Below, piece by piece: positions 150-27,571 of a stretch of 64,000 nt of DNA. The position numbers were made by a program, and so were the translations under genes. Origin of the DNA: a virus; IMG/VR virus record IMGVR_UViG_3300028840_004242, positions 1-64,000 of that record, one strand, 5' to 3'. Under the pieces are notes generated by a model. That model was not told the DNA's origin and did no database searches. It was given only the letters and a program-made list of their open reading frames with translations. Numbering within the stretch: position 1 is the stretch's first letter; the number at the start of each line of letters is the position of its first letter.

Positions 150-1478
150 ATGCCACGTGGTCAAAGTGATATACCGGAATTGAGACTGTCGGTTCTCCAG
201 AATTACATGGAGATATTTGTTACACCGCCAGAATTGATTCTAATGAACATTTTTGGATCCAGCCAGTCCCCATCAAGTAGCATCGAGTGGGAAAGCCACA
301 GAGGTGGAAGGGGTATGACCCCATTCGTTCCGCCTGGTGCTCCGGCGCCCCAGACCGCTCCTCACGGGATAAGCCAGCACAGAGCCGAGGCTGCATACTG
401 GAAAGAGAAAATGCCTTTTGATGAAGAGTTCCTAAATAATCTTCGTCAACCTGGCACCGAATCCCAACGTATGACAGCTCAGCAGAAACTGGCGAGGGAA
501 TTGGCTAACCTTAAAAACAGGAGCAATAGACGAAAGGAATGGATGTTTGCCCAGATGCTGTTCAATAATGGCTTCTCCTATGATGTACAGGGAGGCTATA
601 AGGTCAGCATTGATTATGGTATTCCTACTGCAAACCGGGTTGCACTTACCTCATCTTACTACTGGGGATCAGGTGCAAGTCGAAATGTGATAGGCGACAT
701 CCAGGACGGTAAGCAGCGAATTGCTGATGAGTGTGGCGGTAAAGTAGACATCGCTATTTTTAACTCCAGCACCTTGAAACTGCTTGCTAATGACACCAAC
801 ATCACTAACTTGTTGAAGCGAGACGCCTTCGGCACTGGCGAGCTTTATGGTAATATCGCCAGAAATGTGCATGAAATTGTGGGTGTCAACCCCCAGATCC
901 TGGGTTCCTTACTGGATATTCCTCGGTTTGTCGTTTACGATGAACAATATGAGATCAAAGCCTGGTTGACTGCTGCCGTAACAGGCGGAAGCACGACTTG
1001 GATATCAGTAGATGCCAATGAGGATTTTGTAGTTGGCGGAACGCTGAGAATTCATGATCGTAGTGCTGGCACTTGGGAGGAAAGGTACATCCTTTCAGTA
1101 GACGCCGAGGCTGGCACCGTTCAGATAGAATATCCATTTACCAATTCGTACAAAGCGATGGAAGACTATGTAACGATGGCACAGAAATTCGTACCGGACT
1201 ACAAGTTCGTTATGATGTCTACCAGAGTCGATGGTCAGAATATTGCTGAGTACAAAGAAGCACCTTTCGGAGTAGCTCGCCATTATGGTCAATACACGGA
1301 TACCAATACGGATTGGGATCCTGAAGTAACGTGGATTAGGGTGCAGGATAAAGGCTTGCCCGTTCTCTATCAGAGAGATGCGGTTTACGTTTTAACCGTT
1401 GCACAGGCAGCTGGCTTAGCAGCCACCTCAACCACCACGACTACATCATCCTCCACCACAACCACTACAACTGCTTAA
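150..1478 (+). CDS. Major capsid protein, lambda gpE-like, with C-terminal Thr tag
   Basis: A 442-residue protein that should form the icosahedral shell. The N-terminal extended arm, the RRKEWMFAQ helix, the DIQDGKQRI segment and the late ...MMSTRVDGQ and QRDAVYVL stretches are typical of the gpE capsid family (HK97 fold). An inserted beta-rich region at about residues 270-340 breaks the usual core and could be a surface domain. The last 18 residues are almost only Thr and Ser, ending TTTTTTA, followed by tandem stops TAA TAG. Start chosen at ATG 150 behind AAGGAGG at 134-140, an excellent RBS. The family call is from sequence pattern; the tag is directly visible and is not a usual part of the family. 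Confidence 0.88.
   Translation: MPRGQSDIPELRLSVLQNYMEIFVTPPELILMNIFGSSQSPSSSIEWESHRGGRGMTPFVPPGAPAPQTAPHGISQHRAEAAYWKEKMPFDEEFLNNLRQPGTESQRMTAQQKLARELANLKNRSNRRKEWMFAQMLFNNGFSYDVQGGYKVSIDYGIPTANRVALTSSYYWGSGASRNVIGDIQDGKQRIADECGGKVDIAIFNSSTLKLLANDTNITNLLKRDAFGTGELYGNIARNVHEIVGVNPQILGSLLDIPRFVVYDEQYEIKAWLTAAVTGGSTTWISVDANEDFVVGGTLRIHDRSAGTWEERYILSVDAEAGTVQIEYPFTNSYKAMEDYVTMAQKFVPDYKFVMMSTRVDGQNIAEYKEAPFGVARHYGQYTDTNTDWDPEVTWIRVQDKGLPVLYQRDAVYVLTVAQAAGLAATSTTTTTSSSTTTTTTA
1422..1475 (+). other. C-terminal Thr/Ser tag of the capsid protein
   Basis: Eighteen codons: A-T-S, five T, three S, six T, A. Closed by TAA TAG in frame. Related tags end the connector gene (2762-2812) and the tail tube gene (5705-5743). 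Suggested role: exposed acceptor for O-linked glycans. Confidence 0.8.
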
Positions 1479-1510
1479 TAGCAGTGGTTGAAATTAAGGA
1501 GGCAATCGAT

Positions 1511-1702
1511 ATGGATATCGAAAAAGTAATAATATTGAGTACTCTAAAGAGTGGTAAAAAGATATGGGAGGAGGGGACGGTTTTAGTGCCGCCCCTCCCT
1601 CCTGACATACAAGAAGAGGTAGACCTTGGTGTTAAAACTATAAAGGTTATTTATCATAGGAAGTCAAGAAGGCTTCCTTCTCAGGTGAAACAAGATGACT
1701 GA
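1511..1702 (+). CDS. Small hypothetical protein of the head region
   Basis: 63 residues, basic C-terminus (HRKSRR). I chose ATG 1511 rather than the in-frame GTG at 1484 because AAGGAGG at 1496-1502 lies eight bases before it. No family recognised. Gene overlaps the next one by eight bases, so it is probably translated with the head-tail connector genes. The segment VPPLPPDIQEEVDLGVKTIK suggests a compact beta protein; nothing more can be said. Confidence 0.65.
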   Translation: MDIEKVIILSTLKSGKKIWEEGTVLVPPLPPDIQEEVDLGVKTIKVIYHRKSRRLPSQVKQDD

Positions 1703-2150
1703 AGAAGAATTAATCGATCAGCTAACAGAGGAAGTTAAAAATCTAGATACTTATCTGGAGAGGGATGATTACGTAAATGGATTGGGAGATGCCCAGGCTG
1801 AAACTGGATGGACATTACCTTTAGATGACACCCTCAAGCTGTTATGGATTAAGAAAAGAGCCAAACGTCATATCTTCTTTTACCTTTACTCCGAATCTGC
1901 TCATAAATTCAAATATAAGCAAATAAACCTTCAGCAAAGGTGGGAACATTATAAAGAAATAATCAGTACGATGGATGAGGAATTCGTAGCGTTTCAAGAA
2001 GATAGACCTGATCTTTTTGGTGCTGTGGATCCATTTCATGCTTTTGGTACTAAGATCGATGCTGGATTTGCTTATGAAGGTCAGACAGGAGAGGACATAA
2101 CTTATAGTGATGTAGCTGAAGTTGATTTTACTCCTAAAGAGAATGACTAA
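1695..2150 (+). CDS. Probable head-tail connector (adaptor) protein
   Basis: 151 residues, rich in helix and acidic, with a central helical stretch around LKLLWIKKRAKRHIFFYLYS and another around QQRWEHYKEIISTMDEEF. Its place directly after the capsid gene and before a second connector-like gene matches the adaptor (HK97 gp6 or SPP1 gp15 class), proteins that dock on the portal. The assignment is by position and helical character, not by a clear motif. Its TAA shares a base with the next ATG (TAATG), so the two are likely coupled. Confidence 0.5.
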   Translation: MTEEELIDQLTEEVKNLDTYLERDDYVNGLGDAQAETGWTLPLDDTLKLLWIKKRAKRHIFFYLYSESAHKFKYKQINLQQRWEHYKEIISTMDEEFVAFQEDRPDLFGAVDPFHAFGTKIDAGFAYEGQTGEDITYSDVAEVDFTPKEND

Positions 2151-2815
2151 TGACCATTGGACCTGATATTAAAGAAGCTATTGTTGAGGTCGGAACTAAA
2201 TATAACATATTAAGGGACAGTGGGAATGTTCTTGGAGAATATCTTGACTACGAAACTAATGCTCAGGTCACAAAACCCTTCATTCGAGAGTTCTTTCTCG
2301 AAGCTACCCTAGTATATGATACTTCAGCGTTAGCTGGAGATGTCATTCAATTTACCACCACATCAGAGAAATACTTCATAATGAATTTAACGCCAGAGAT
2401 GTTTGAGAATACAGTTATCTCATATCAAGGCGTATTATATAAAACCAATGAAACCATGACGGTGTACAGACCAAGTGAGTCAAGGGACAGTCAAACCCTT
2501 TTGATGAAAACTACTTGGACACCCGTTGAAACCAACAAACCTATACTGATCACGGCTCCTTTATTTGGTATAGACTTAGATACAGACGAGCAACTTGGAT
2601 TGATTGGGTTACAGGTGCATGAGGCATTTGTTCCATCCAGTTATGATATCCAAGTTTTAGATCGCCTGCTGTTAAGCTCTGGAGAGTACTATAGGGTAGA
2701 GGCGATAAAAAAGAGAAGATTTGAAGGCATGGACGTATTGGAAGTGGGAACTGACACTAGACCTACTACCACTACCACCACAACTTACACCACTACTACT
2801 ACGACTACTGCCTAA
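2150..2815 (+). CDS. Probable head completion/connector protein with C-terminal Thr tag
   Basis: 221 residues, beta-rich. The segment DRLLLSSGEYYRVEAIKKRR near residues 165-185 looks like the beta-barrel end of head-closure (stopper) proteins, where a defined 'dose the hole recorded here' loop precedes a YxV strand. The C-terminus is seven Thr, Tyr, seven Thr, Ala, then tandem stops TAA TGA. A 20-base stretch (2777-2796) of this tag is identical to 5708-5727 in the tail tube gene, in the same codon phase. Start overlaps the previous stop. Function is from position; the tag is certain. Confidence 0.55.
   Translation: MTIGPDIKEAIVEVGTKYNILRDSGNVLGEYLDYETNAQVTKPFIREFFLEATLVYDTSALAGDVIQFTTTSEKYFIMNLTPEMFENTVISYQGVLYKTNETMTVYRPSESRDSQTLLMKTTWTPVETNKPILITAPLFGIDLDTDEQLGLIGLQVHEAFVPSSYDIQVLDRLLLSSGEYYRVEAIKKRRFEGMDVLEVGTDTRPTTTTTTTYTTTTTTTA
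2762..2812 (+). other. C-terminal Thr tag of the connector protein
   Basis: Codons for P, seven T, Y, seven T, A, followed by in-frame TAA TGA. Shares a 20-nt identical in-phase block with the tail tube tag. Confidence 0.8.
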
Positions 2816-2864
2816 TGAGTTCAATGCTTGAGTTCTTTTATCTTTAGCATAGGAGATTATGCTA

Positions 2865-3047
2865 ATGTCCAAGCCAGGTTGTTTATGTCCTTATTGCGGA
2901 ACAGAAGTTATTATAATCAGCAGTAAAGAGGACGACCGTTTCAAGGTAGTTTGTCCTAAGTGTTTTAAGCCTTTTTATGTAGTGAATAGTAAGACCGGAT
3001 TACCAGAAGGAGATCAGTATGAGGTGGATCCGAGGCATATACTATGA
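2865..3047 (+). CDS. Small zinc-ribbon protein
   Basis: About 60 residues with two CxxC knuckles (CPYCG and CPKCF) some 22 residues apart, a classic four-cysteine zinc ribbon. ATG 2865 is preferred over ATG 2859 because AGGAG at 2851-2855 then has a nine-base spacer. Overlaps the next gene by four bases. Small zinc ribbons in phage late operons include Com-type RNA-binding regulators, but no specific function can be assigned. Confidence 0.65.
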   Translation: MSKPGCLCPYCGTEVIIISSKEDDRFKVVCPKCFKPFYVVNSKTGLPEGDQYEVDPRHIL

Positions 3048-3307
3048 ATTTGTTTATCAGCGATGAGGATTTAATCAGAGTAGATATTTTTGTTAAGCGA
3101 TGTGGCGGAAATTGTGAACCTGGAAGATTACTGCATAGACTTTACTCGGCTTATTTAATGATGAGGGAAGCCCTAAAAAAAGCCGATTATGAAGCGTATC
3201 AAAGGATAATTGAAAATGGTGAGAATGTCGTGGGATTTGAACAGCTACCGTCGGTATCTGGGTGCCTTGATAAAGATAAGAAGGAAGGCACAGATAGAGC
3301 AGAATGA
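3044..3307 (+). CDS. Small hypothetical protein
   Basis: 87 residues; helical N-terminal two thirds. The last third (about 90 bases) overlaps the following gene in another frame, and its charged tail (KDKKEGTDRAE) looks like sequence constrained by the other reading frame. ATG overlaps the previous stop. No family recognised; the N-terminal part is probably real. Confidence 0.5.
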   Translation: MNLFISDEDLIRVDIFVKRCGGNCEPGRLLHRLYSAYLMMREALKKADYEAYQRIIENGENVVGFEQLPSVSGCLDKDKKEGTDRAE

Positions 3308-3731
3308 CCTTCCCATGCGTTCGGCACTGGACTATGTTTATCGTGTAAGTAGTAATATCAGTATTCAAAAGTTTGCAGGACAGTGGTCACCTCTTAACCA
3401 GCGTTATAGGGAATGGAAGTTGTTTGCTTTTGGTGAAAGTAGATGGTGGATAATGAGCGGAGCCTTACAAAGGTCTCTTACAATTTTTAAACTAAGTGGA
3501 GGATGGTTTGGAGGAGTTCCTGCACATGCTATGGCACCTGGTACTTCTTGGTTTGGAACGGATCCTGGTCCACCTGTTAGCATAGCTGAGTATGGGTATT
3601 GGGCTGAATATGGTAGAAGGGGGCAGGCTGCTAGGCCTCTTTTTAATCCTACCCTTGAAGAGTTTATAGAAGAAGGATGGCCTAAGCAAGCTACTCAATC
3701 AATGTCTAAATTAATGGGAGCATGGCGATGA
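3216..3731 (+). CDS. Probable HK97 gp10-like tail completion/neck protein
   Basis: About 171 residues. An N-terminal helix (SYRRYLGALIKIRRKAQIEQ) is followed by a Trp/Tyr/Gly-rich core and by GRRGQAARPLFNPTLEEFIEEGW. The 'RP-F-P-L' turn followed by a terminal helix is seen in the HK97 gp10 family of neck or tail-completion proteins, and the gene lies in the usual place before the tail terminator. Start at ATG 3216 is supported by AAAGGA at 3201-3206; ATG 3225 is an alternative. Function moderately supported. Confidence 0.5.
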   Translation: MVRMSWDLNSYRRYLGALIKIRRKAQIEQNDLPMRSALDYVYRVSSNISIQKFAGQWSPLNQRYREWKLFAFGESRWWIMSGALQRSLTIFKLSGGWFGGVPAHAMAPGTSWFGTDPGPPVSIAEYGYWAEYGRRGQAARPLFNPTLEEFIEEGWPKQATQSMSKLMGAWR

Positions 3732-4048
3732 AATGGTTAAAAGGTAATGTCGAATCAATTTTAACCGTTCTGGCAATAATTGGAATGGTAGTAGGAGGAC
3801 TGTCCTACTTTGCTAAGAGTGAAGATCTTAATCTTGTTGACCTTAGGCTAGAACAGAAGATAGTAGGAGATGCAATATATCAAATATCTATGCAGATGGG
3901 TCAATTGGAAGATAAACATGGAAATGATAATTGTTCTAGATGGAATGATGCCAGAGATCGTGAACGTTATCGTAAATTAAGATTACAATTGGAATCCCTT
4001 AAGAAAAAGCAAGATGCAATCATCAATGAACAAACAAGGAGTAGATGA
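3728..4048 (+). CDS. Small membrane protein with coiled coil
   Basis: About 106 residues: one transmembrane segment near the N-terminus (ILTVLAIIGMVVGGLSYF) then a charged helical, probably coiled-coil, region with two long Lys/Glu helices. GGGAG at 3716-3720 supports ATG 3728, which overlaps the previous TGA. The topology resembles an inner-membrane spanin, or a holin accessory, which would be unusual among head-tail joining genes. No family recognised. Confidence 0.55.
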   Translation: MKWLKGNVESILTVLAIIGMVVGGLSYFAKSEDLNLVDLRLEQKIVGDAIYQISMQMGQLEDKHGNDNCSRWNDARDRERYRKLRLQLESLKKKQDAIINEQTRSR

Positions 4049-4257
4049 TGAAGATAGTGGATGCTTATCCAAAGGATGTTCATGTTCAAATTGAAATGCC
4101 ATTAAAAGAACTTAAAATGCTCAAAACGTATATTGAGAACAGTCTTCCTGTTTATGCTCGTGTACATGAAGAGTTTGAGGAAGAGCAGTTCTTGGAGCAC
4201 AACTTCATTCCAGAAGCTAAAAGCGTAATAGAGTACGCGGAAAAGTTTAGCAAATAG
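4048..4257 (+). CDS. Small hypothetical protein
   Basis: 69 residues, acidic, helical (KELKMLKTYIENSL, EEFEEEQFLEHNF). ATG 4048 follows AAGGA at 4036-4040 by seven bases; ATG 4045 is a possible alternative. It closes the first tight gene cluster: a 68-base intergenic region with a conserved element follows. No function suggested. Confidence 0.55.
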   Translation: MKIVDAYPKDVHVQIEMPLKELKMLKTYIENSLPVYARVHEEFEEEQFLEHNFIPEAKSVIEYAEKFSK

Positions 4258-4276
4258 CACAGCAAGCAATTTAAGA

Positions 4277-4300
4277 AGTTCGTGCAGAATTCGTTAAATA
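4277..4300 (+). promoter_or_regulatory. Conserved intergenic element, copy A
   Basis: A 24-base core starting AGTTCGTGCAGAATTCG and ending AAATA lies in the gap before the tail terminator gene. Copies occur at 27476-27499 (same strand, one mismatch) and 48474-48497 (other strand, a few mismatches). All three lie in operon-leading gaps and are oriented with transcription. Promoter, activator site or 5'-leader element are all possible. Confidence 0.6.
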
Positions 4301-4337
4301 AACTGCACTAAATTTAAGAACAGAGGTGTATAACAGT

Positions 4338-4802
4338 ATGACTTTAGACGCTACAGCAAGAGAAGCAAATATCAGAGATAGTGTTAAAAAGTTCTTTATA
4401 GACACCTACTCCGTCCCTATGTCTTTTGATAAAGCTCTATCTCAGCCTGACTTGCAAGGGCGTACCGTTCATAAATGGATAAATGTAATTATTCACCTTT
4501 CAGAAGTAGCTCTTTTATCTGACACCTTGGTACATGTGTACTGCTGTACGAGACAGGATAATGAATATTTTAAATTATCCCAGTTAAGGGACACTATTGT
4601 GGAAGGACTTTCGATTGACTCTAGTACCAGTCAATCTGATGCCTTTAAACGAATCACTTTCTATCAGAGTCATCCTACTAATCCATGGACAGAAATAGGG
4701 AAACTGCTAGTTACCGAAGTGTATGAGTCAATACCTATGGAAGGTCCTGATGAAACCAAATATAAAATAATAACAGTACGATTAAGGGCACCGGCAAAGT
4801 GA
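4338..4802 (+). CDS. Probable tail terminator/tail completion protein
   Basis: 154 residues from ATG 4338 (AGAGGTG at 4322-4328 with a nine-base spacer; the GTG at 4326 is less likely). An alpha/beta protein: early helix RDSVKKFFIDTYS, then strand VHKWINVIIHL, a central YCCTRQDNE, and a final strand-rich part. Size, fold pattern and position immediately before the tail tube gene fit the tail terminator class (lambda gpU type), a hexameric cap on the finished tail. No decisive motif. Confidence 0.5.
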   Translation: MTLDATAREANIRDSVKKFFIDTYSVPMSFDKALSQPDLQGRTVHKWINVIIHLSEVALLSDTLVHVYCCTRQDNEYFKLSQLRDTIVEGLSIDSSTSQSDAFKRITFYQSHPTNPWTEIGKLLVTEVYESIPMEGPDETKYKIITVRLRAPAK

Positions 4803-4812
4803 GAACTCTATT

Positions 4813-5103
4813 ATGGCAAAACGATTCTACCACTGCAAGTACTGTGGAAAGCGAATGATAGAAAGACTACCGAATGGATGTTGGAAGTTTGTATTTGGTA
4901 GTGATAAGGAAAATCCAGGAGATCCTCCTGTTGAAATGATAATATTTGGATCGCTTAAGATGAAATGTCTTAGGAGATCTTGCGGTAAGTTTAATACTTT
5001 TTATTTTTGGCCTAAGGTGAGGTTTGCAAGTCAATCAGACGACATTGAGGTTAATCCTATAAATGAGCAGTCTGAAGTTCTGGCAGAAACTCGTAATCAT
5101 TAA
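4813..5103 (+). CDS. Zinc-ribbon protein, Com-like architecture
   Basis: 96 residues with CKYCG near the N-terminus and CLRRSCG about 40 residues later. The arrangement of a first CxxC, a beta strand, 'MKC...CGKFN' and an aromatic strand resembles Com of phage Mu, a small zinc protein that binds mRNA, but the spacing differs and the resemblance is weak. It lies alone between the tail terminator and tail tube genes. The tail after residue 75 is polar and probably disordered. Confidence 0.5.
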   Translation: MAKRFYHCKYCGKRMIERLPNGCWKFVFGSDKENPGDPPVEMIIFGSLKMKCLRRSCGKFNTFYFWPKVRFASQSDDIEVNPINEQSEVLAETRNH

Positions 5104-5125
5104 CTTTAACAAGGAGGTATAGACT

Positions 5126-5746
5126 ATGGTTGATCGTTATGGTCCATTGACCAAAGACAGTACCACCATTGCGTTAGGTCTGGCGCAGATCAGGGTAGGC
5201 CCTTCAGCGGCTAATATTCATAATTATAATCCCTGTCTCGGTTCTGCACACAGCCTAGGCGCTATGGCAAACACCTCTTACACAGGTAATCTGGAATTCT
5301 ATAAGCTAGAGTCTGGATATCCTCTGTTAGAGGACGCTACATTCCCGCTGCGGGAATCAGCTATGCTGTCATGTGGTTTTAGGGAAATCACTCCCAAAAA
5401 CATGGCTCTAGCTTATGGCTTGGATCCTGCAGATTATACCAATGCACATAGTGGAGATGTGCCGTTGGGTAACATTTCAACCCCGGTGTTCATTAGAGTG
5501 GAGGCTTTGTATACCTTCCCTGATGGCTCCAACACCATGACCATTGTTTTCCCAAGAGCTCAGGCTATTGCTTCTATTGAGATGGAGTTTGCACCTGAGG
5601 AACCTGCTGCTGTTGCCCTTCAACTCGAGGCTAAGAGAGCAGACAGCGGGATTAGTGGTGGAAATGCGGTATGGGATAGTGCCCCTCTGGGTCACATTAT
5701 CTGGAATACCACAACTTACACCACTACCACTACTACTACAGCTTAA
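5126..5746 (+). CDS. Major tail (tube) protein with C-terminal Thr tag
   Basis: 206 residues, beta-rich, no signal peptide; strong RBS AAGGAGG before ATG 5126. Its place just before the G/GT chaperone pair and the tape measure identifies it as the tube protein, which stacks in hexameric rings around the tape measure. The body ends near residue 193; then comes N-TTT-Y, seven T, A and tandem stops TAA TAG. The first half contains a Gly/Ser-rich loop region. Function from synteny; the tag is seen directly. Confidence 0.78.
   Translation: MVDRYGPLTKDSTTIALGLAQIRVGPSAANIHNYNPCLGSAHSLGAMANTSYTGNLEFYKLESGYPLLEDATFPLRESAMLSCGFREITPKNMALAYGLDPADYTNAHSGDVPLGNISTPVFIRVEALYTFPDGSNTMTIVFPRAQAIASIEMEFAPEEPAAVALQLEAKRADSGISGGNAVWDSAPLGHIIWNTTTYTTTTTTTA
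5705..5743 (+). other. C-terminal Thr tag of the tail tube protein
   Basis: Thirteen codons N-TTT-Y-TTTTTTT-A followed by TAA TAG. Bases 5708-5727 are identical to 2777-2796 in the connector tag. Confidence 0.8.
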
Positions 5747-10872: not shown

Positions 10873-10873
10873 A

Positions 10874-14220: not shown

Positions 14221-16097
14221 TGGCAAAAACTTTTATCAGATTTAATAATGTTGTTATTCCTGAGGAATCTGTTATAGCCAGAGCCTTTGTGGTTTTCACT
14301 TCTTATTCTTCTCTAGACTCTATAGATGCTAATGTTAAATGCTATTTTGCTAATCAAGATAATCCTTCCGCTCCTTCCTCTAAAAGTGATTTAGATAGTA
14401 GACCTTTGACCTCTTCTGTGGACTGGACAAACCTCCAAGAATGGGTAGATAATAGGGTGTACACTACTCCTGATCTCAGAGACATACTACAAACAGTGAT
14501 GGATAGGGAGGGATGGGAGAGCGGTAATAGTGTTCTTTTTATAATGGAAGACGATAGTTCTGACACTGGATCCCGTCGTGAGTTTTCGGCTATTGAGTTC
14601 CTTAGTGGGGCTGAGAAAGCAGAACTTAGGTTGTCTTGGGAACCTCCACGTCAAATAGAGAGGGTGGATTTTATTCCTGCACCAGGGGCTTATAGTGAGG
14701 ATGTGGATGTAGAGTTAGTAGCTTACCCTTCTGGATGTTCTATCTATTATACTTTAGATGGAAGTGATCCAGATGAAAATTCTTATCTTTATTCTTCTGC
14801 TCTTCCTTTGATCACTTCTGAGTATAATTATCATATAAGGGCTCGTGCTTACAAAGATCATTGGCTTCCAAGTGAAATATATGATGGTTATTATTTTACC
14901 ACTACTATTGTTAAGGTTGAGGAGATATTTGATTCTGGTGAGAATCGTTTGAGGTATGTAGATATTGCTTTGGATTCTAATGATGTTCCTCATTTATTCT
15001 TTGGAAAGTTAAATCCTCTTGTAGGAGTACTTGGAAGTTATGAATTATATTATATCAATAGAATAGGAGGATCGTGGTCACCAATGGAATTGATCCGTCA
15101 GATTCCTTATGACGGTACTTATAGGCAGATTAATCGAGACATGGGTATAGTGATAGATAGTAATGACGACCCTATTGTTTACTGGTCTGAGAATAGAGAA
15201 AGTGGAATCTATAATGCTGATTTTTGCAGGGCAAAGAAAAGTGGAGGATCTTGGTCATTAGAAACTCCAGTATCAGATCTAAGTTCTTATTTAGTATTGG
15301 ATTTTGAATATTTTATAGAGGAAGATGATACAGAACATGTGATGTTTACTGACTATACAGGTGTATATCCTGTAAGATGGTTTTCGAGGAACCCTAACAC
15401 TGGTAATTGGTCTTATGGTGGTCAATTTTCTAGTAATGTGGATTATGATTTTGTGATAGACAGTAATGGTTATATCCATTGTGTATATGGATCTAACAAT
15501 CTTACCAGTATTTATTATAGGACTAATGCATCTGGTTCTTGGGTAACAGAGTCTTGGCTTCATCATCCAGAAAATGAAGATATAAAAATCTTTGGTACTT
15601 TCAATATAGGATTAGGTATAGGAGATGAAGTTCATATAATGTGGGCTGGTAATGAGTATCATCAAGAAGCTGCCTGTGGTGGAATACATAGGTTTAATTC
15701 TAGAATCATAAGGTGGTATAAGGATGAAGAAGGAACTTGGGTTCGAAGGATATATGAAGATGCTGGTAAGAAATGGGATGAGGCTGGGGATTGTAGAGAT
15801 AATTGGTATACAGCATTAGATATGGAAATGCTACCTATAAATGCAGAAAACAATGTGCCTAGTTTTGTAGGACGTTGGTGCAGTTATAGCACCTGTTACG
15901 TGACACTTTGGAGAGGGTATGGAGCAAATATAAATATAGAAGGGGGATACGAAGAGGACGAATCTGCTGAGTGTAATGCTGTAGATAGTGATCTTAATAA
16001 TCATTTAGCGTGGGTATGGGAAAACGAAGATGTAACTCCTAATACATATAAATTAAAATATGGAACCACTGCAATTGAGTGGAGAGAGTATTTGTAA
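14220..16097 (+). CDS. Tail fibre with paralogous N-domain, chitobiase-like and beta-propeller-like regions
   Basis: 625 residues. Residues 1-141 form a domain shared with the next gene (MAKxFIRF, DNPSAP, LQTV, GW.SGN, DDSSDTGS). Residues about 160-225 resemble the FN3/CHB_HEX_C fold of chitobiases (SIYYTLDGSDPDENS, YHIRARAYK). From about 235 to the end are repeated strands with 'DSNDVPH', 'DSNDDPIVYWSE', 'DSNGYIHCVYGS', like the Asp-box repeats of sialidase-type propellers. No catalytic residues were identified. Probably a receptor-binding or glycan-binding fibre. Confidence 0.6.
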   Translation: MAKTFIRFNNVVIPEESVIARAFVVFTSYSSLDSIDANVKCYFANQDNPSAPSSKSDLDSRPLTSSVDWTNLQEWVDNRVYTTPDLRDILQTVMDREGWESGNSVLFIMEDDSSDTGSRREFSAIEFLSGAEKAELRLSWEPPRQIERVDFIPAPGAYSEDVDVELVAYPSGCSIYYTLDGSDPDENSYLYSSALPLITSEYNYHIRARAYKDHWLPSEIYDGYYFTTTIVKVEEIFDSGENRLRYVDIALDSNDVPHLFFGKLNPLVGVLGSYELYYINRIGGSWSPMELIRQIPYDGTYRQINRDMGIVIDSNDDPIVYWSENRESGIYNADFCRAKKSGGSWSLETPVSDLSSYLVLDFEYFIEEDDTEHVMFTDYTGVYPVRWFSRNPNTGNWSYGGQFSSNVDYDFVIDSNGYIHCVYGSNNLTSIYYRTNASGSWVTESWLHHPENEDIKIFGTFNIGLGIGDEVHIMWAGNEYHQEAACGGIHRFNSRIIRWYKDEEGTWVRRIYEDAGKKWDEAGDCRDNWYTALDMEMLPINAENNVPSFVGRWCSYSTCYVTLWRGYGANINIEGGYEEDESAECNAVDSDLNNHLAWVWENEDVTPNTYKLKYGTTAIEWREYL

Positions 16098-19000
16098 TGG
16101 CGAAAGCATTTATTAGATTTACAGGTGTGAATATTCCTCAGGGAAGCAGTATCAATTTGGCTTTCGCTCGATTTATAGCATATGGAGCTACCAATGCTTC
16201 AAATGCCAATGTTACCTATTATTTTGTAAATGCTGATAATCCTAGTGCACCAGCTAATAAGACAGAGTTAGATGCCTTCAGTTTAACTTCTGGTATAAAC
16301 CAAAGCGATCTACTTGCTTGGGGCGACGGTACAGGCTATAGCACTCCTAACCTAGCTTCTATACTTCAAACAGTGATAGACAGGAGTGGTTGGGCGAGCG
16401 GCAATGCTATTATATTGGTGATAGACGACAATAGTTCTGACACCGGATCCCATCGTATGTTTAGCAGTTATGACTATAATAGTGGTTCGGAGAAGCCTAC
16501 CTTCTATGTAGATTGGCGTAGTCAGTGGCTACAGTATTTTAATTATACTCGTTGGGAACCTGATCATATAGATCCTGAAACTGACATCGAAGTTGAATGG
16601 GATTCTGTTAATGGTGATTGGGATTTCAATGTAAATGCAGATTCAAATGGTGGTCGTCTAAGAGCTATTGGTACTTGGATGATTAACTTCAGACCTGAAA
16701 AGATTAAAATCATCCATGATCATGGAGGCAGTCCAAATCTTGAAATAATGACCACTAATGGTCAATGCTGGCAAGGTAATTATGCTTCAGGTACTGTGAT
16801 TTACCCTAATTGGGTGAATAGAGGAGATATAGATTACTTTACCTTTACCTTAAGTGCTGGAGACGACACACCATTCAATGTAACTGATATACTGCTTTGG
16901 GATACAAGAACCACCGCAAGTCAAACAACAACCTCTACCACTACATCTACTTATAGCACAACCAGCACATTATCCACCACAAGTAGTTTCACCACTACTA
17001 CTGGATCTACTACTTTCTCTAGTACCACTTCAACAACCAGTAGTAGTACCAGCACTACAATGAGCACGAGTAGTACAGAGACCACCTATACTACTAGCAC
17101 TACAGGAACTACTGGGAGCACCACTTCTAGTACTCATTCGAGCACTACTTCCTTTACCAGTACAAGTACCAGCACCTTCAGCACAACCAGTACATCTACA
17201 TCAAGCACCAGCACTTCTACCTATAGTACAACCAGCACTTATTCTACCACCAGTACCAGCACCAGTACATTCACTACGACTAGTACATACTCTACCACCA
17301 GTACCAGCACATCAACCTACTCGACCACAAGTACTTTTATAACAACCACATCTTCTTCTACTTCTAGCACCAGCACCAGCACCAGCACCAGCACATACTC
17401 CACTACTACATCTTCAGCTACTACCACCACTCAAACTGTACCTTGTGATAATTGGAGTAGTGATCATACATCAGGAGGAACTGCTTCGGCTTTTTCAACG
17501 CAGGCTGGTAGTGACCCAGATAATGCTTTTGACGATAATGATAGTACTTATTGGCAGGCTACAGTAGATCTGTTTCCAAATTGGATACAGATTGAAATGA
17601 CATCAGCTTGGATTGTGCATAGGGTTAGATTACTTTTTAACAACGCTTCTTATAGGCCTACAGGATTGTCAATCTTATCTTCGGCTACAGGTAATTTTGC
17701 AGGGGAGGAAACTACTCATTATTCTGGAGAGAATCCTAAGGGAGGATGGAATACTTATGATATATTAGATAATACATTACATCATAAGTATTGGCGTTTT
17801 AGATTTACTGATGCTTTTGATAGTACTAATGTTTATTTGCATGAGGTAGAATTATTAACTTGTGGTACTCTTACAACCACTACAACTACCTATACAACTA
17901 CATCTACCAGTACATATAGCACAACCAGTACCAGCACCTCGACCTTTAGCACAACTAGTACATACTCAACTACCAGTACCAGCACCAGCACCTATTCAAC
18001 CACAAGCACAAGTACCAGCACCTTCAGCACAACCAGCACCAGCACCAGCACCAGTACATACTCTACAACCAGCACAAGCACCAGCACCTTCAGCACAACT
18101 AGTACCAGCACCAGTACATACTCTACTACAAGTACCAGTACAAGTACCAGCACCTATTCAACCACAAGCACAAGTACCAGCACCAGTACCAGCACCAGTA
18201 CATATTCAACCACCAGTACCAGTACATCTACTAGCACAAGTACCAGCACATATTCAAGCACCAGCACAAGCACCAGCACATACTCAACCACTAGCACAAG
18301 CACCAGCACATACTCGACCACTAGTACCTATTCAACAACTAGTACAAGCACTAGTACCTATTCAACAACCAGCACAAGCACGAGCACAAGCACCAGTACT
18401 AGCACTTACTCTACCACAAGCACTTACTCTACCACAAGTACCAGTTCTAGTACAGCATCTACAACCAGCACCTTAAGTACCACATCGTCTACAGCATCTA
18501 CAACCAGCACCTCATCTACCACAAGTACCAGTTCTAGTACAGCATCTACAACCAGCACCTTCAGCACTACCACTACAACCGAGCCCCCTCCTGTTCCTGA
18601 CTTTGAAGATGATTGTTCCGGTACTTTTACTGATAAATGGATCGATAACTCTAATAGTAATAATCATGCTCAATATACAAGTGGACAATTAGAATTAGAT
18701 CTTAATACAGCAGGTGGAAATTATGGATGTAATGCACTTTTGAAAGATGCTTTGGATGCTTCGGGACAATGGTCTTTCAAATTTTGGTTTAAACCTACAA
18801 ACAATCCATACGATGATGGTCTAATTAATTATATACAAGGTTTTGAAATAGTCGAGGCGAGTCCAACTTACTATACTGGTTCTTGGGATTATAACAGATG
18901 TGAACTTGATATGGGTTCTGCTGGAGATAAAATAAGATTGGCAATGAGGTCAGATACTAGTGGATTAATAACTGTTACAGAAGTTAGTGGTGGTAGTGGA

Positions 19001-19249
19001 AACACTCTTATTAATGAATCATTTACATACGATGAAACAAATGGACATAATGTGGAAATTGTCCTTAATTTTGATGAAGAATGGATTGAGTTATATGTAG
19101 ACGATACCCAGTATGGATCACAGCAGTCGGTATCTAGTACGATTCTTTCAGCAATTGGAAGCTCTTTTAAGGTTAATTTACATTATCATAACTATTTAAA
19201 ATCAGGATATAATTGTTGGTTCGACAATTTTGAGTTTACACAGAGTTAA
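16097..19249 (+). CDS. Mucin-like tail fibre with discoidin and lectin-like domains
   Basis: 1050 residues from ATG 16097 (TAATG overlap). Layout: 1-141 N-domain paralogous to the upstream fibre; 142-272 beta-rich domain; 273-448 first Ser/Thr/Tyr tract; 449-590 F5/8 type C domain (DPDNAFDDNDSTYW, WIQIEMTSAW, HKYWRFRF); 590-830 second tract built of YSTT(ST)n units ending in TTTTTEPPP; 832-1050 a concanavalin/LamG-like domain (WSFKFWFKPTNN, VEIVLNFDEEW, WFDNFEF). Ser/Thr tracts separate folded domains as rigid, probably glycosylated stalks. The domain calls are by pattern; the tracts are certain. Confidence 0.7.
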   Translation: MAKAFIRFTGVNIPQGSSINLAFARFIAYGATNASNANVTYYFVNADNPSAPANKTELDAFSLTSGINQSDLLAWGDGTGYSTPNLASILQTVIDRSGWASGNAIILVIDDNSSDTGSHRMFSSYDYNSGSEKPTFYVDWRSQWLQYFNYTRWEPDHIDPETDIEVEWDSVNGDWDFNVNADSNGGRLRAIGTWMINFRPEKIKIIHDHGGSPNLEIMTTNGQCWQGNYASGTVIYPNWVNRGDIDYFTFTLSAGDDTPFNVTDILLWDTRTTASQTTTSTTTSTYSTTSTLSTTSSFTTTTGSTTFSSTTSTTSSSTSTTMSTSSTETTYTTSTTGTTGSTTSSTHSSTTSFTSTSTSTFSTTSTSTSSTSTSTYSTTSTYSTTSTSTSTFTTTSTYSTTSTSTSTYSTTSTFITTTSSSTSSTSTSTSTSTYSTTTSSATTTTQTVPCDNWSSDHTSGGTASAFSTQAGSDPDNAFDDNDSTYWQATVDLFPNWIQIEMTSAWIVHRVRLLFNNASYRPTGLSILSSATGNFAGEETTHYSGENPKGGWNTYDILDNTLHHKYWRFRFTDAFDSTNVYLHEVELLTCGTLTTTTTTYTTTSTSTYSTTSTSTSTFSTTSTYSTTSTSTSTYSTTSTSTSTFSTTSTSTSTSTYSTTSTSTSTFSTTSTSTSTYSTTSTSTSTSTYSTTSTSTSTSTSTSTYSTTSTSTSTSTSTSTYSSTSTSTSTYSTTSTSTSTYSTTSTYSTTSTSTSTYSTTSTSTSTSTSTSTYSTTSTYSTTSTSSSTASTTSTLSTTSSTASTTSTSSTTSTSSSTASTTSTFSTTTTTEPPPVPDFEDDCSGTFTDKWIDNSNSNNHAQYTSGQLELDLNTAGGNYGCNALLKDALDASGQWSFKFWFKPTNNPYDDGLINYIQGFEIVEASPTYYTGSWDYNRCELDMGSAGDKIRLAMRSDTSGLITVTEVSGGSGNTLINESFTYDETNGHNVEIVLNFDEEWIELYVDDTQYGSQQSVSSTILSAIGSSFKVNLHYHNYLKSGYNCWFDNFEFTQS
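16915..17440 (+). repeat. First Ser/Thr low-complexity tract (fibre 1)
   Basis: About 175 codons of Thr and Ser with periodic Tyr or Phe. Wobble bases vary freely (AGT/AGC, ACC/ACA/ACT) while residues are kept. Confidence 0.9.
17866..18585 (+). repeat. Second Ser/Thr low-complexity tract (fibre 1)
   Basis: About 240 codons mostly in units Tyr-Ser-Thr-Thr plus a variable number of Ser-Thr pairs, closed by TTTTTEPPP. The same closing motif appears at 33330-33350. Confidence 0.9.
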
Positions 19250-19257
19250 CGGATATA

Positions 19258-19274: not shown

Positions 19275-19310
19275 GTCAATCATTAACCAAATGAAGAAAG
19301 GAGTAGGAAG

Positions 19311-20573
19311 ATGAAAATTGCAATCATGACAACATTTCAAGAGTTTCAACCAGGTTACAGTCTTACGGGTATTGTTAAGGATCAGGTAGAGATGCTCGCT
19401 CGTTATGACCATGAAGTTCACCTTTTTGTAAATGAAAGGTATCATGGAGAGGACTTTCCAGGTAACGTACAATTAAGGAAGGAAATACCTTTTACTCACC
19501 TCAAAGATTATCATTCTGTGAGGGACCTGTCAGACGAGCATAAGATTATCAAAATTGAGACAGCCAAAAGGTTCGTCAAGATACTCGGTGAAGAGGAATT
19601 TGATGTAGTTTATACTCATGACTTTGTTTTCATTGGTTGGAATATGCCTTATGGTGAAGCTATAAAGGAAGCTACTTCCAATCTACCAAAGGTAGTGTGG
19701 ATGCACTGGATACACAGTATCCCTTCAGGTGGTCCACGAGATTGGTGGAATATAGGGGAATACGGTCCAAATCATAAACTCATCTATCCAAACGAAACTG
19801 ACCGTATTAGGGTAGCAGAGCACTATAAGGGGCAGATTCATGATGTTCGTTGTATACCTCACATTAAAGATATCCGTACATGGTTTGAATTTAGTGACGA
19901 CACCAAGAGGCTGATTGATAAATATCCAGGCATACTGAGTGCAGAATTCGTTCAATTACTACCTGCTTCAGTAGATCGACTGGCAGCCAAAAGGTTGCGT
20001 TATGTAATGAGTATCTTTGCTGAGCTTAAAGCTCATGGAAGAGAAGTGTTCCTTCTCGTAGCTAATCAGTGGGCTACTGGTAAACAACAGAAAGAAGATA
20101 CTGATAAATATAGACAACATGCGATAATGAAAGGATTGATTGATCAAGTAGACTTCGCCTTTACCAGCGACTTCGAGAGCCCCAAGTTTGATGTAGGCAT
20201 TCCCCAGTATATGATCCGTGAGCTGTTTCTCTGTAGCAACCTGTTTATCTTCCCCACTAGGGAAGAGTCTTTTGGTCTTGTAGTACCAGAGGCGGCTTTG
20301 TCTGGAACCTATATGGTGCTAAATAAGTCTTTGCATCAGCAAATAGAGATTACTAAGGCCAATTGCCTCTATTTTGACTTTGGTAGCTTTAGTCATGATT
20401 TAAAGATTGAAGATCCAGATAAATTCTTTCGTGATGTAGCTTTTATCATCATAGGCAGATTTAAAGAGAATGAGGCATTGAAAATCAAGACACACTGCCG
20501 CAGAACCTATAATTATGATAATCTTTACCGTAAGTACTACGCACCCACAATGCAGGAGTTAAAATATAGATGA
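19311..20573 (+). CDS. Glycosyltransferase, GT4-like (GT-B fold)
   Basis: 420 residues; first gene of the cassette, with RBS AAAGGAG before ATG 19311. The N-domain begins MKIAIMTTFQEF with a Rossmann strand. The C-domain carries SNLFIFPTREESFGLVVPEAALSG cut here as REESFGLVVPE, the E-x7-E nucleotide-sugar binding motif of GT4 retaining enzymes. A 14-base stretch (19939-19952) inside this gene is identical to part of intergenic element copy A, probably a coincidence or a hidden site. Sugar and acceptor unknown; expected to act in the host cytoplasm. Confidence 0.8.
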   Translation: MKIAIMTTFQEFQPGYSLTGIVKDQVEMLARYDHEVHLFVNERYHGEDFPGNVQLRKEIPFTHLKDYHSVRDLSDEHKIIKIETAKRFVKILGEEEFDVVYTHDFVFIGWNMPYGEAIKEATSNLPKVVWMHWIHSIPSGGPRDWWNIGEYGPNHKLIYPNETDRIRVAEHYKGQIHDVRCIPHIKDIRTWFEFSDDTKRLIDKYPGILSAEFVQLLPASVDRLAAKRLRYVMSIFAELKAHGREVFLLVANQWATGKQQKEDTDKYRQHAIMKGLIDQVDFAFTSDFESPKFDVGIPQYMIRELFLCSNLFIFPTREESFGLVVPEAALSGTYMVLNKSLHQQIEITKANCLYFDFGSFSHDLKIEDPDKFFRDVAFIIIGRFKENEALKIKTHCRRTYNYDNLYRKYYAPTMQELKYR

Positions 20574-21154: not shown

Positions 21155-21155
21155 T

Positions 21156-21878: not shown

Positions 21879-22579
21879 GTAGAAAGAAGAAACCTACCCC
21901 TTTCTCTATACAGTTAAAGAAATGGTATCCTAGGATGGAAGATAGATCCTCCATCATTCATAAGTTTATTTCTATTCACATACCAAGAACAGGAGGGACT
22001 ACTTTTCGCAACCTTCTGTTTTATTGGTATGGTATTTTAAATGTGCTTCATGATGAAACAAGTAAGAGGTATATTCCTGATATAATAAAAGCCTCTCCTC
22101 CTCCTAATGCTACTCTATTTGACATAATACATGGGCATTTTCATCATACTAAGTATGATTATTTAGGATTGCCTATGGTCACATGGGTAAGGAATCCTAT
22201 AGATATGGTTGCAAGTCAGTTCTATTCTCTTAAAATTCATAATACTACTGCCAGGTCTCCAGAAATACACATAAAGATAATAAAGGAGGAGATGACTCTA
22301 ATAGATTTTGCTAGGTACGAAGGCACTCGTAATCCTATTAGTAAGTTTATTGGAGGAACAGATTTAGATAAATTCGACTTTATAGGCATAACAGAGTATT
22401 ACGATGAGAGCTTACAGAGATTTGGTAAGTGGAGTGGTATGCCTATTCCAAATGCTTATCCTATTTATAATTTTAGAGACTACCCGGAGATAAGTAAAAA
22501 GGAAAGAGATATAATCGGAAAATACAATAAAAAAGATCTAATAATATATGATGAAGCGGTTAAGAGGTTTGCACCTTGA
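21875..22579 (+). CDS. Sulfotransferase-like protein 1
   Basis: 234 residues from ATG 21875 (overlaps TGA of the previous gene). IPRTGGTTF at residues 36-44 is the 5'-phosphosulfate-binding loop, and VRNPIDMVASQF at about 105-116 the 3'-phosphate-binding site (R...S) of PAPS-dependent sulfotransferases of the Golgi/heparan 2-O type. Between them lies HGHFHHTKYDYLG. In this context the substrate is probably a sugar hydroxyl on the glycan made by adjacent enzymes; PAPS would come from the host. Family motifs are clear, substrate is inferred. Confidence 0.8.
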   Translation: MSRKKKPTPFSIQLKKWYPRMEDRSSIIHKFISIHIPRTGGTTFRNLLFYWYGILNVLHDETSKRYIPDIIKASPPPNATLFDIIHGHFHHTKYDYLGLPMVTWVRNPIDMVASQFYSLKIHNTTARSPEIHIKIIKEEMTLIDFARYEGTRNPISKFIGGTDLDKFDFIGITEYYDESLQRFGKWSGMPIPNAYPIYNFRDYPEISKKERDIIGKYNKKDLIIYDEAVKRFAP

Positions 22580-23715
22580 GGTTGATTTTCTTATTTAATA
22601 GTGATGGAGCAGCACAAGAAGGATCTAATGTGCCTTGGGATCCTCACGCTCAATCTAATAATTTTTATGCTACAGGTGAAAATGGATTGCCTAGCGAAGG
22701 GTACCTGTATATGCTCCGCGAAATGCTTAATCAGGGTATAATAGATGACCTTCTTATTTTTATCGAATCCTCTCGCAGTCCAGGTTATACCACTTATTTT
22801 AATCATGTTAAGTGTTATGTAGTTCCTGAGATAGGATATGCACATCAGTTCTTGAGATCAGATGATATAATTTGGGCAAGAGGTGGATTTAGAAGTTGGT
22901 TTAACTTTTTAAACCGTATGAAGAAAGAAAGGCGTTGGTTGCTGGTTTACGCAGCCAATACAGGTAGGGCACGGTGGAAGTTCTGGGACGTTGTTTTTGA
23001 CGACCTTTATGGGAAGCATCGTTATGATTCCCGAGGTAGATTTTTTTACTACTTCAAAAAGCCTATAAATCCGGATTACTTCCGGCCTCTTCCTGATATT
23101 AAGAAGAGGTATGATATCTGCGTTGGTGCATCGCACGTCCACGACAAGAAAGGTCAGTGGAAAACCATTGAGGTCATCGCGGAGTATAAAAGGCTTTTTA
23201 ATCAAGACCTCCACTGTATAATGCCAGGTCGTGTAACTCACGGGGTCAAAACAAACCAGATAGGTTCAACTATAAATAGTGCCCGTCTGTCAGTACACTG
23301 TCCTGGTATGCTCCACCGCACAAAGGTGGCTGAGGTTTTAAACCAAAGCCACCTTTCTGTCTTTATGGGACAAGGCGGGCAGAATGATAGGGGTCCAATA
23401 GAATCGCTGGCCTGTGGAACTCCTATACTCTTGGCGGGGACTGCCCGCCATTGTCCTTCTATTTGGAAAGATAATCCTTTTTGTCATGTATCTTCAAACC
23501 CTGATGATATAAGCAGCATAGCTCATGAACTTAGGAATGCAATCCTTACCTTCCGTAAAAAGGGAATAAAGCAGAGGTGTTATGATGATTTTCAAAAGCG
23601 TAATGGTCTTTATGATGTAATATTACCTGAAATGGAAAGACTGTTCCGTGTAATTAGAAAGAATCCTAAACCAGATATTCAACCTTTAATAAAGGAATAT
23701 ATTGAAAATGATTGA
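22576..23715 (+). CDS. Glycosyltransferase-like, GT-B fold
   Basis: 379 residues. Begins at TTG 22576, which overlaps the upstream TGA (TTGA), giving RLIFLFNSDG as first strand. The C-domain has QGGQNDRGPIESLACGTPILL, matching the donor-site helix of GT4-like enzymes (E followed by a Gly-Thr-Pro turn), and YDICVGASHVHDKKGQW opens that domain. No membrane segments. Part of the uninterrupted operon 19311-27449. Confidence 0.65.
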   Translation: MRLIFLFNSDGAAQEGSNVPWDPHAQSNNFYATGENGLPSEGYLYMLREMLNQGIIDDLLIFIESSRSPGYTTYFNHVKCYVVPEIGYAHQFLRSDDIIWARGGFRSWFNFLNRMKKERRWLLVYAANTGRARWKFWDVVFDDLYGKHRYDSRGRFFYYFKKPINPDYFRPLPDIKKRYDICVGASHVHDKKGQWKTIEVIAEYKRLFNQDLHCIMPGRVTHGVKTNQIGSTINSARLSVHCPGMLHRTKVAEVLNQSHLSVFMGQGGQNDRGPIESLACGTPILLAGTARHCPSIWKDNPFCHVSSNPDDISSIAHELRNAILTFRKKGIKQRCYDDFQKRNGLYDVILPEMERLFRVIRKNPKPDIQPLIKEYIEND

Positions 23716-24301
23716 TTTAAGAACAATGTATAAAGGAAGATATTTTGCAAGAAGAAGCAGTTTAGAGTGGAGAGCAAAGGCTGTATGTGATGCTATTTGT
23801 AAAGTATTAGATCCTAAATCTGTGATAGATGCAGGGTGTGCTGTTGGAGATCTAATAAAAGAGTTTGACAAAAGAAAGATAATGTGCTATGGGATAGAGG
23901 GTACGGATAATGTAGTTCCCTACCTTTTGGTTCCTAAAGATAAAGTTTTCATCAAAGACCTGAGACTTCCACTTAACTTAGGTCTAAGTTTTGATCTTGC
24001 AATTTGTTTAGAGGTAGCAGAGCATATAGATGAAGAGTGTGCAGATCAATTTGTTGAGAATTTAACCAATCTCTCCAAAAGAGTTCTAATTTCAGCCGCT
24101 CCTCCTGGACAAGGAGGTCACGGTCATGTCAACTGTCAGCCTTACACCTATTGGGTATTCAAGTTTGTTAATAGAGGTTTTATTAACGGGCAATCTATTC
24201 AGGATAGAGTAAAGAATCTGTTAAAACCTTGGAAAGACAAGAAAGGAATCAAAGCCTATTACGATAACATGATGTATTTTGAAAGGATAAAGCCGTTTTG
24301 A
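23708..24301 (+). CDS. Class I SAM-dependent methyltransferase
   Basis: About 197 residues. SVIDAGCAVGDLIKEF is motif I (SAM-binding Gly loop), followed by CYGIEGTD (acidic residue after strand 2) and FDLAICLEVAEHID (motif around strand 4), typical of sugar or small-molecule methyltransferases of the Methyltransf_11/25 type. ATG 23708 overlaps the previous gene by eight bases. HGHVNCQPYTYW near residue 145 may be substrate-side. Confidence 0.75.
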   Translation: MIDLRTMYKGRYFARRSSLEWRAKAVCDAICKVLDPKSVIDAGCAVGDLIKEFDKRKIMCYGIEGTDNVVPYLLVPKDKVFIKDLRLPLNLGLSFDLAICLEVAEHIDEECADQFVENLTNLSKRVLISAAPPGQGGHGHVNCQPYTYWVFKFVNRGFINGQSIQDRVKNLLKPWKDKKGIKAYYDNMMYFERIKPF

Positions 24302-24927
24302 GGAAGTTTGTTTTTGTTCATATACCTAAATGTGGAGGCACTTCTTTTAATATTACGGTAAGGGAAAAGTTTAAAGATAAGATATTTAGGGATCGTCATT
24401 TTAGGAAAGACAGATACTTGGGAATGATAAAATTTACTGATAGGTCTGAAAAGGGTTACCCTGGTGGTTTTGACGAAAACTACCATGTAGGCGTTATTGG
24501 TCATTTTACAGCCAATAAGTATAAGCATTTAGGGTGGCCTATGATTACTTTCCTTAGGGATCCTGTAGACAGATTGATTTCCTATTACTCTGTTTGGAAG
24601 CACGGGGCTGAGGGAATTAAATCAAAGAATATATTTTGGTTCGCCCGTCAATTTCCTAACTATATGCATCTAATGACAGGCGGGGATTTAGATCAATTTG
24701 CTTTTGTAGGTATTACAGAGAGGCATGAAGAAAGTATGAGAATAATAGAAAAGATTTTGGGATTTGAAATCATACATAAGATGCATGCCAACAGAACTCC
24801 TGGTAGGAAGAAGTTTAGGTTTAGTGGACGTACCAGGAGAATACTTGATGAAATAAATCAAGAGGATAGAAGTATTTACAATGAGGCATTAAGTAGGTTT
24901 GATATAATGGCTCAAAGATATCTATAG
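24298..24927 (+). CDS. Sulfotransferase-like protein 2
   Basis: 209 residues, TTG start at 24298 overlapping TGA. IPKCGGTSF at residues 9-17 (PAPS 5'-phosphosulfate loop) and FLRDPVDRLISYYS at about 85-98 (3'-phosphate site, R and S) are diagnostic of carbohydrate sulfotransferases. VGVIGHFTANKYKHLGW stands between as in the other copy, and both share 'D-F-GITE-E' further on (FAFVGITERHEES versus FDFIGITEYYDES). Thus two paralogous sulfotransferases occur in one cassette, presumably for different positions or sugars. Confidence 0.82.
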   Translation: MRKFVFVHIPKCGGTSFNITVREKFKDKIFRDRHFRKDRYLGMIKFTDRSEKGYPGGFDENYHVGVIGHFTANKYKHLGWPMITFLRDPVDRLISYYSVWKHGAEGIKSKNIFWFARQFPNYMHLMTGGDLDQFAFVGITERHEESMRIIEKILGFEIIHKMHANRTPGRKKFRFSGRTRRILDEINQEDRSIYNEALSRFDIMAQRYL

Positions 24928-24935
24928 GAGGTATC

Positions 24936-25664
24936 ATGATAGATGTTACAATCACAGCTTGCAGAAGGCGTGAATTACTATTCAAGACTCTTAATTCTTT
25001 TTTAGAAAACCTTTTATGGAACCATGACTTTAGAATTATTATTAATGTGGATCCTGTAGGAGTAAATGAGGACAGCTATAAGTCGATAGAATTATGCTAT
25101 TGGTTCGCAGAACCCGTTATTGCTCGCTGTCCAGCAGAGCCTAATTTTAGTGATGCTTTTAAGTGGTGTTGGGATCAGGTAGAAAATAATTGGATCTTAC
25201 AACTGGAAGACGATTGGGAATTGTTGCAAAGGGTGGACTTACGACATATGATGGGAATATTAGAATCATATCAAGATCTTGCACTTCTGCGCCTACCTCA
25301 GTTTAAGTGTGGCAAGGATGGTATGAAGAACTGGGATCGTTGGTTTCCCTGGAATGGCACTTATTATGAATGCCCAGAGGAAATTAAACAAGCAGTAGGT
25401 TTCTGTGGTCATCCTTCCCTTATAAAGGGATCCTTCGTTAAAGCCTGTCGCCAACATCTACTCACCGATCGTAATCCTGAAAAGCAATTTCATGGGGGTA
25501 ATGAAGCATTGGTAAACGAGGTGATGCATTGGAAGTATGGGGTATATGGTCATCCAGGAGAGCCTAATTATATACGAGATATGGGGAGGGAGTGGGCTGT
25601 TAAGAATGGATGGAAAAAGAAAGGTAATAAAGCTCACTTTATGATATGGGAAAAGGAAGAATGA
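24936..25664 (+). CDS. Glycosyltransferase, GT2-like (GT-A fold)
   Basis: 242 residues, RBS AGGAGG before ATG 24936. First strand MIDVTITACRRRELLFKTL, acidic metal site WILQLEDDWEL at about residues 88-98, and a Trp-rich acceptor half (KNWDRWFPWNGTYYECP). It resembles the enzyme at 21156 in size and in the Q-x-DDW motif, so the two are probably paralogues. Ends in ATGA overlap. Confidence 0.65.
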   Translation: MIDVTITACRRRELLFKTLNSFLENLLWNHDFRIIINVDPVGVNEDSYKSIELCYWFAEPVIARCPAEPNFSDAFKWCWDQVENNWILQLEDDWELLQRVDLRHMMGILESYQDLALLRLPQFKCGKDGMKNWDRWFPWNGTYYECPEEIKQAVGFCGHPSLIKGSFVKACRQHLLTDRNPEKQFHGGNEALVNEVMHWKYGVYGHPGEPNYIRDMGREWAVKNGWKKKGNKAHFMIWEKEE

Positions 25665-27499: not shown

Positions 27500-27571
27500 T
27501 CAGCGTCAATTTTAACGTGTAATTACATGACTTTACGACAATCTCGCAGGAGAAGAAAGGAATACGATAAA

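Follow-up and report, generated by a model that had tools for sequence, protein, structure and literature searches.

What purpose is served by the threonine-rich C-termini that close three structural genes of an uncultured virus? The genes lie within a stretch of 64,000 nucleotides (nt), hereafter the window, that comprises positions 1 to 64,000 of the IMG/VR virus record IMGVR_UViG_3300028840_004242. They encode the major capsid protein (MCP), a neck protein referred to here as the stopper, and the tail-tube protein. Direct reading showed these products to end in TSTTTTTSSSTTTTTTA (MCP, gene 150-1478), TTTTTTTYTTTTTTTA (stopper, 221 amino acids, gene 2150-2815) and TTTYTTTTTTTA (tube, 206 amino acids, gene 5126-5746). 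These ends, termed tags, probably act as dense acceptors of O-glycans on the virion exterior, being modified by a cassette of glycosyltransferase (GT) and related genes that the phage itself encodes.

The three poly-threonine (poly-Thr) tags, as called in the original prediction, are real and far from chance. The pattern (ACN)6GCNTAA was found three times in the whole 87.8-kb (87,830-base) virus record, in each case at the end of the MCP, stopper or tube gene, with no match on the reverse strand and none for a reversed control pattern. The stopper and tube tags share an identical block of 20 nt, ACCACAACTTACACCACTAC, lying in phase 0 of both genes (2777-2796 and 5708-5727), a length reached in 0.6% of synonymous codon resamplings (P ~0.006), and recent copying between these two tags is likely. 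The MCP tag is outside this block and has at most 8-10 nt in common with the others, so that modular copying of the tag, as proposed, can apply at most to the stopper and tube pair of this one phage. Tandem stops had also been described as accompanying the tags. They are present on all three genes of the studied phage (TAATAG for MCP and tube, TAATGA for the stopper), but in relatives they were identified for only 10/43 genes (7/19 MCP, 1/14 stopper and 2/10 tube), and are thus not part of the tag feature.

Identification of the tagged proteins was firmest for the MCP, which matched PF03864 (E=3e-34, 119 bits vs a curated cut-off of 22.9) as well as phrog_29. An AlphaFold model of the stopper (mean predicted local distance difference test score, pLDDT, of 80) was matched by Foldseek to SPP1 gp16 (7z4w), XkdH (3f3b) and the neck of phage Chi (8vhx), along with several 'head closure knob' entries of BFVD, with template modelling (TM) scores to the targets of 0.4-0.67 and moderate E-values. 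Its gene is situated between adaptor-like and tail genes. Judging from this model, the protein first named a connector is indeed a structural protein of the neck, specifically one with the head-closure/stopper fold of the SPP1 gp16 kind. The stopper tag itself was modelled with a pLDDT of ~50, being of low confidence or disordered. The tube gene is located between a tail-terminator-like gene and the tape measure gene (6511-10872), and some of its orthologues gave weak matches to the 'major tail protein' families phrog_476/117, with no match for the studied tube protein itself, whose structure was poorly predicted (pLDDT 42).

Scanned with the MCP, IMG/VR yielded 39 distinct loci. Among MCP relatives of 58-100% identity, the same three genes were found to be tagged at every readable gene end with the exception of locus L143. 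Tagged orthologues numbered 20 for the MCP, 15 for the stopper and 11 for the tube (14 stoppers and 10 tubes beyond those of the studied phage), amounting to 46 tags. In a tree of MCP cores from which the tag had been omitted, the 20 tagged MCPs formed one group (support 100/99) with ten untagged MCPs outside it. Untagged relatives stop exactly where the tag would start (...YILDVA, ...EDTR and ...PLGRIAWA), as do the gene ends of the nearest of them, G021 (the same as L143), at 60% identity. Only three MCP relatives were found in bacterial metagenome-assembled genomes, in bins of Ignavibacteriota, Bacteroidales and Bacteriovoracaceae; no tag is present in two of these MCP regions, and in the third the contig ends within the MCP.

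Across the 46 tags, Thr and serine (Ser) account for 93.5% of residues. Residues one mutation away from Thr consist of 223 Ser and 29 others, and the Thr codons ACC, ACA, ACT and ACG are all common. Random Thr ends among relatives, named in the original prediction as a refuting result, were not seen, Ser being almost the sole change tolerated. Mixed codons and Ser-restricted substitution point to selection on hydroxyl residues at the protein level, and a simple DNA repeat or slippage was ruled out on the same grounds. These features also make it very improbable that the tags are functionless, neutral low-complexity expansions derived from slippage or copying between genes, although the 20-nt block and the range of tag length (8 to 64 residues) would fit such an origin. 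The same three orthologous genes are tagged across a deep clade, the random tag loss to be expected among close relatives was not seen, and tags recur on exterior proteins of unrelated phages (see below). It is extremely improbable that the tags direct assembly, sorting or proteolysis as C-terminal signals that are bound or removed in the course of morphogenesis: such Ser/Thr tracts are also found inside fibre proteins, tag length and ending vary, and no protease could be linked to the tags. Consistent with a signal are the strictly C-terminal position on several structural proteins and the final Ala of 32/46 tags.

Further tail proteins with a C-terminal Thr tag were observed in G005 (70295-71698 and 71701-73854) and G026 (15694-16203 and 21876-22514). 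Untagged relatives were observed to carry an extra gene for a product of 156-186 amino acids directly after the MCP (G021 42672-43166, G031 64279-64770, G037 88668-89228 and G038 29652-30122), which was found in none of the tagged phages. It is possible that this gene encodes a head accessory protein that was replaced by the tags in tagged phages.

The tail-fibre genes of the window are followed by a set of glycan-type genes (19311-28543; Table 1), of which a GT4-type glycosyltransferase (GT4) is the hallmark. GT4 and the genes starting at 22576, 23702 and 24936 were syntenic and common to 5/5 near-complete tagged genomes (G000, G005, G006, G015 and G022), with those at 26574 and 27527 present in 4/5. 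In the untagged G021, G031, G037 and G038, no cassette genes were found apart from one methyltransferase match of 26%; as the tagged phages are one clade, this comparison of five genomes with four counts as a single event, which limits its weight as support for an acceptor role. The product of gene 24936 is putatively GT-A-like, as it gave no family match. A PDB sequence search using profiles of GT4, the GT-A-like product, the tube and the stopper returned no useful match.

The association was also examined in reverse, by searching the viral collection with a GT4 alignment, which gave 80 loci. Ser/Thr-tract genes, defined by at least 17 Ser or Thr in 20 residues, were found within 10 kb of the GT4 homologue, and often within 100 bp, at 48/80 loci; for randomly chosen viral loci the count was 0/33 (Fisher p=1e-10). 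Tract genes numbered 81 in 1,290 kb of GT4 loci and 0 in 277 kb of random sequence (Poisson p=3e-8); these contrasts are weakened by the shared ancestry of the GT4 loci and by random controls that were few, shorter and not matched for habitat. No Ser/Thr-tract gene was present in 167 kb at loci of untagged MCP relatives. The GT4 set extends down to 26-30% identity, and many of these distant homologues immediately follow a Ser/Thr-tract gene. Genes of the cassette core (22576, 23702, 24936 and 27527) recurred at 26-30 of the 80 GT4 loci, as against 0 control loci. A homologue scan with a GT of the untagged lineage, intended as a matched control, retrieved only the query itself. The GT4 of tagged contig G097 (12381-13446) was observed to match in three pieces and two frames, being either broken or affected by sequencing error.

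Tag and cassette were also found together in an unrelated lineage, designated B. In G108 (IMGVR 3300033148_010409), the 343-amino acid PF03864 MCP has no tag; instead, tags are present on a gpD-type head decoration protein encoded ahead of it (phrog_49, E=1e-23) and on an immunoglobulin (Ig)-type major tail protein encoded after it (phrog_807, E=4e-31), and the same cassette is present with its GT4 at 29021-30286. It is established for lambda gpD that peptides attached to its C-terminus are exposed on the outer face of the particle, and a tag on the decoration protein instead of the MCP, where a decoration protein exists, is as an exterior function predicts. A scan with the lineage-B tube family, its tag removed, gave 45 loci, at 33 of which the tube passed a strict tag test; of the others, nearly all finish in a run of 5-7 Thr, while a Ser tract is present in one. 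Many of these loci have a tagged gene just upstream, at the position of the decoration gene. Among lineage-B records no shorter than 40 kb, GT4 was identified in 8/10, compared to 0/10 for random records of that size (p=0.0007). A head-tail adaptor (phrog_477) was likewise found to be tagged, the same GT4 being present in its contig, and so were MCPs of two other families (phrog_10 and phrog_212). In a GT4 tree, the genes from the lineage of the studied phage group together, with those of lineage B and the unassigned ones placed outside or beside this clade. This topology is consistent with tag and cassette having been gained jointly, in a single acquisition. One tail-tube relative, L398 (contig 3300037468_000389), was observed to have a C-terminal tract, SSSSSESSSSSSSSCRSSSSSSALP, that is Ser-rich and not Thr-rich.

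The linkage of tag and cassette in two unrelated lineages, with the tag on the outermost shell protein in each, provides independent circumstantial support for the acceptor role first suggested by the original prediction. As short, disordered and hydroxyl-dense extensions of the virion proteins at their C-termini, the tags would offer O-glycans clustered sites of attachment across the exterior of head, neck and tail tube. The cassette would build and decorate the glycan in the host cytoplasm, and the Ser/Thr tracts within the fibre proteins may be further acceptors for the same enzymes. Shielding, altered adsorption and stability are candidate benefits. Alternatively, the tags could act unmodified, as a hydrophilic and flexible brush for solubility, spacing or weak adhesion to surfaces of the host or environment. 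The disordered stopper tag of the model, the hydrophilic nature of Thr/Ser tracts and the tolerance of Ser for Thr agree with a brush, but the linkage of the tags to one particular GT cassette across unrelated lineages would be unexplained, as would the near-exclusive use of hydroxyl residues when Gly, Asn, Gln, Lys and Glu also form brushes; this explanation is considered unlikely.

Besides the single event and the shared ancestry already mentioned, a number of observations weigh against glycan acceptance by way of this cassette. Family matches of the cassette genes are weak, with none for 24936. GT4 is missing from 2/10 long lineage-B records and from several long tagged records of other phages, and the tagged fragment G026 showed no cassette in the visible 31 kb downstream of its MCP. 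Untagged relatives carry another glycan-type cassette, which separates the stopper gene from the structural gene that follows, so that the presence of GTs alone does not predict tags. The untagged relatives' cassettes and the tagged phages without this GT4 would also fit a role of the cassette elsewhere (in the host envelope, on fibres only or on DNA), with the tags modified by the host or left bare and the two travelling together through shared hosts. So would the finding that the tracts at most tract-bearing GT4 loci are in fibre-like genes directly upstream and not in capsid genes. However, GT4 accompanies tagged tubes in 8 of the 10 long lineage-B records, and it is established that the secreted sites of host O-glycosylation exclude capsids assembled in the cytoplasm; this alternative is regarded as quite unlikely. 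Acceptance of glycans from the phage's own cassette is the preferred explanation.

In the untagged lineage, the cassettes were located at 44724-55229 in G021 (L184), 66162-74867 in G031 (L189), 10788-26645 in G038 and 6207-9180 in L334. That of G021 contains GT2, GT4/GT9, DegT-like aminotransferase and radical SAM genes, with the same arrangement in L334 and G038.

Taken more broadly, the GT4 cassette and a portable poly-Thr tag may well constitute a widespread and transferable coating system that gives unrelated uncultured lineages a mucin-like glycan coat, a proposal held with somewhat less assurance than the acceptor role. As part of it, the tag would evolve onto outward-facing proteins, namely the MCP where there is no decoration protein and otherwise the gpD-type protein, as well as the stopper, tube and fibres. 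Should the tags indeed accept glycans, uncultured phages would make recurrent use of dense virion glycosylation as a strategy, a poly-Thr end with a GT4 cassette would be its searchable sequence signature, and the tag would offer a simple peptide acceptor that can be tested in vitro and is perhaps useful as a portable glycosylation tag.

Table 1. Tagged genes, tags, cassette genes and fibre-like genes of the window.
Feature	Position	Strand	Basis
Major capsid protein (PF03864), 442 amino acids, first tag	150..1478	+	Pfam/PHROG matches
MCP tag TSTTTTTSSSTTTTTTA	1425..1475	+	Direct reading; kept in 20 MCP orthologues
Head-closure/stopper protein ('connector'), 221 amino acids, second tag	2150..2815	+	AlphaFold pLDDT 80; Foldseek
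Stopper tag TTTTTTTYTTTTTTTA	2765..2812	+	Contains 20-nt block 2777-2796
Tail-tube (major tail) protein, 206 amino acids, third tag	5126..5746	+	Gene order; weak phrog_476/117 for orthologues
Tail-tube tag TTTYTTTTTTTA	5708..5743	+	Contains 20-nt block 5708-5727
Tail-fibre-like protein, long internal Ser/Thr tract	16079..19249	+	Sequence reading
GT4-type glycosyltransferase, cassette hallmark	19311..20573	+	PF13439 E=1e-6, phrog_2170; 50-65% identity in all tagged genomes
Second GT-B-like glycosyltransferase, cassette core	22576..23715	+	Profile matches mannosyltransferase 2f9f E=0.001
Methyltransferase-like, cassette core	23702..24301	+	PF13489 E=1.5e-5, just below curated cut-off
Sulfotransferase-like, accessory	24298..24927	+	PF03567, phrog_3347; in 5/80 GT4 loci
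Putative GT-A-like gene, invariant LEDDW, cassette core	24936..25664	+	Alignment; no family match
Methyltransferase, accessory cassette gene	26574..27449	+	PF08241 E=2e-16
GT2 glycosyltransferase, cassette core	27527..28543	+	PF00535 E=5e-10; in 30/80 GT4 loci
Fibre-like protein, long Ser/Thr repeats	32552..37507	+	Sequence reading

The two fibre-like proteins with Ser/Thr repeats were observed in all long tagged genomes and in none of the untagged. Elsewhere in the window, a family A DNA polymerase with an N-terminal domain of the uracil-DNA-glycosylase superfamily is encoded in a single reading frame (49743-52388). Two genes (60444-61100 and 61039-61470) resemble, by eye, QueE and QueD of the 7-deazaguanine pathway, which suggests that the DNA may be modified.

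Literature searches for poly-threonine phage tags returned no description of them, and, within the literature searched, the homopolymer-like tag and its occurrence across lineages appear to be new. Virion O-glycosylation by phage-encoded glycosyltransferases has been shown in mycobacteriophages, and was reportedly described by Freeman et al. (2023, doi 10.1016/j.chom.2023.05.028) as rare elsewhere. As cited in two later papers, glycans are present on the C-termini of mycobacteriophage capsid and tail-tube subunits (PMC12619734) and virion glycans are linked to shielding from antibodies (PMC12691614). Similarly, the phage studied here has candidate acceptor residues at the C-termini of its capsid and tail-tube proteins, and encodes glycosyltransferases (GT4 and GT2 matches) in the same genome. 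In contrast to the tagged proteins, the capsid and tube proteins of Che8 lack a Thr tract, their ends being ...VVVFNKTGS and ...AEQYSDGS. The Che8 stopper, ending in ...AELRKV, has no Ser/Thr end, whereas the stopper is tagged here. Homology of the cassette to the Che8 GTs gp108-110 was sought with blastp and hhalign and gave no significant match. The system would thus resemble mycobacteriophage glycosylation in principle; it is distinguished by a dense homopolymer-like candidate acceptor, found also on the stopper, decoration protein and fibres, and by a different set of enzymes.

Mucin-like domains are Ser/Thr-rich and O-glycosylated, and the tags share with them a dense Thr/Ser tract as a candidate clustered acceptor. 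They differ in having no Pro spacing, in their cytoplasmic assembly and in belonging to a prokaryotic virus, with the glycan being a predicted one. Ig-like or other accessory domains are carried on capsid and tube proteins elsewhere, for example in phage Douge (PMC13033339), and in both cases multi-copy appendages on head and tube subunits would alter the virion surface. Those domains are folded and glycan-binding, whereas the tags described here are unfolded and probably glycan-bearing.

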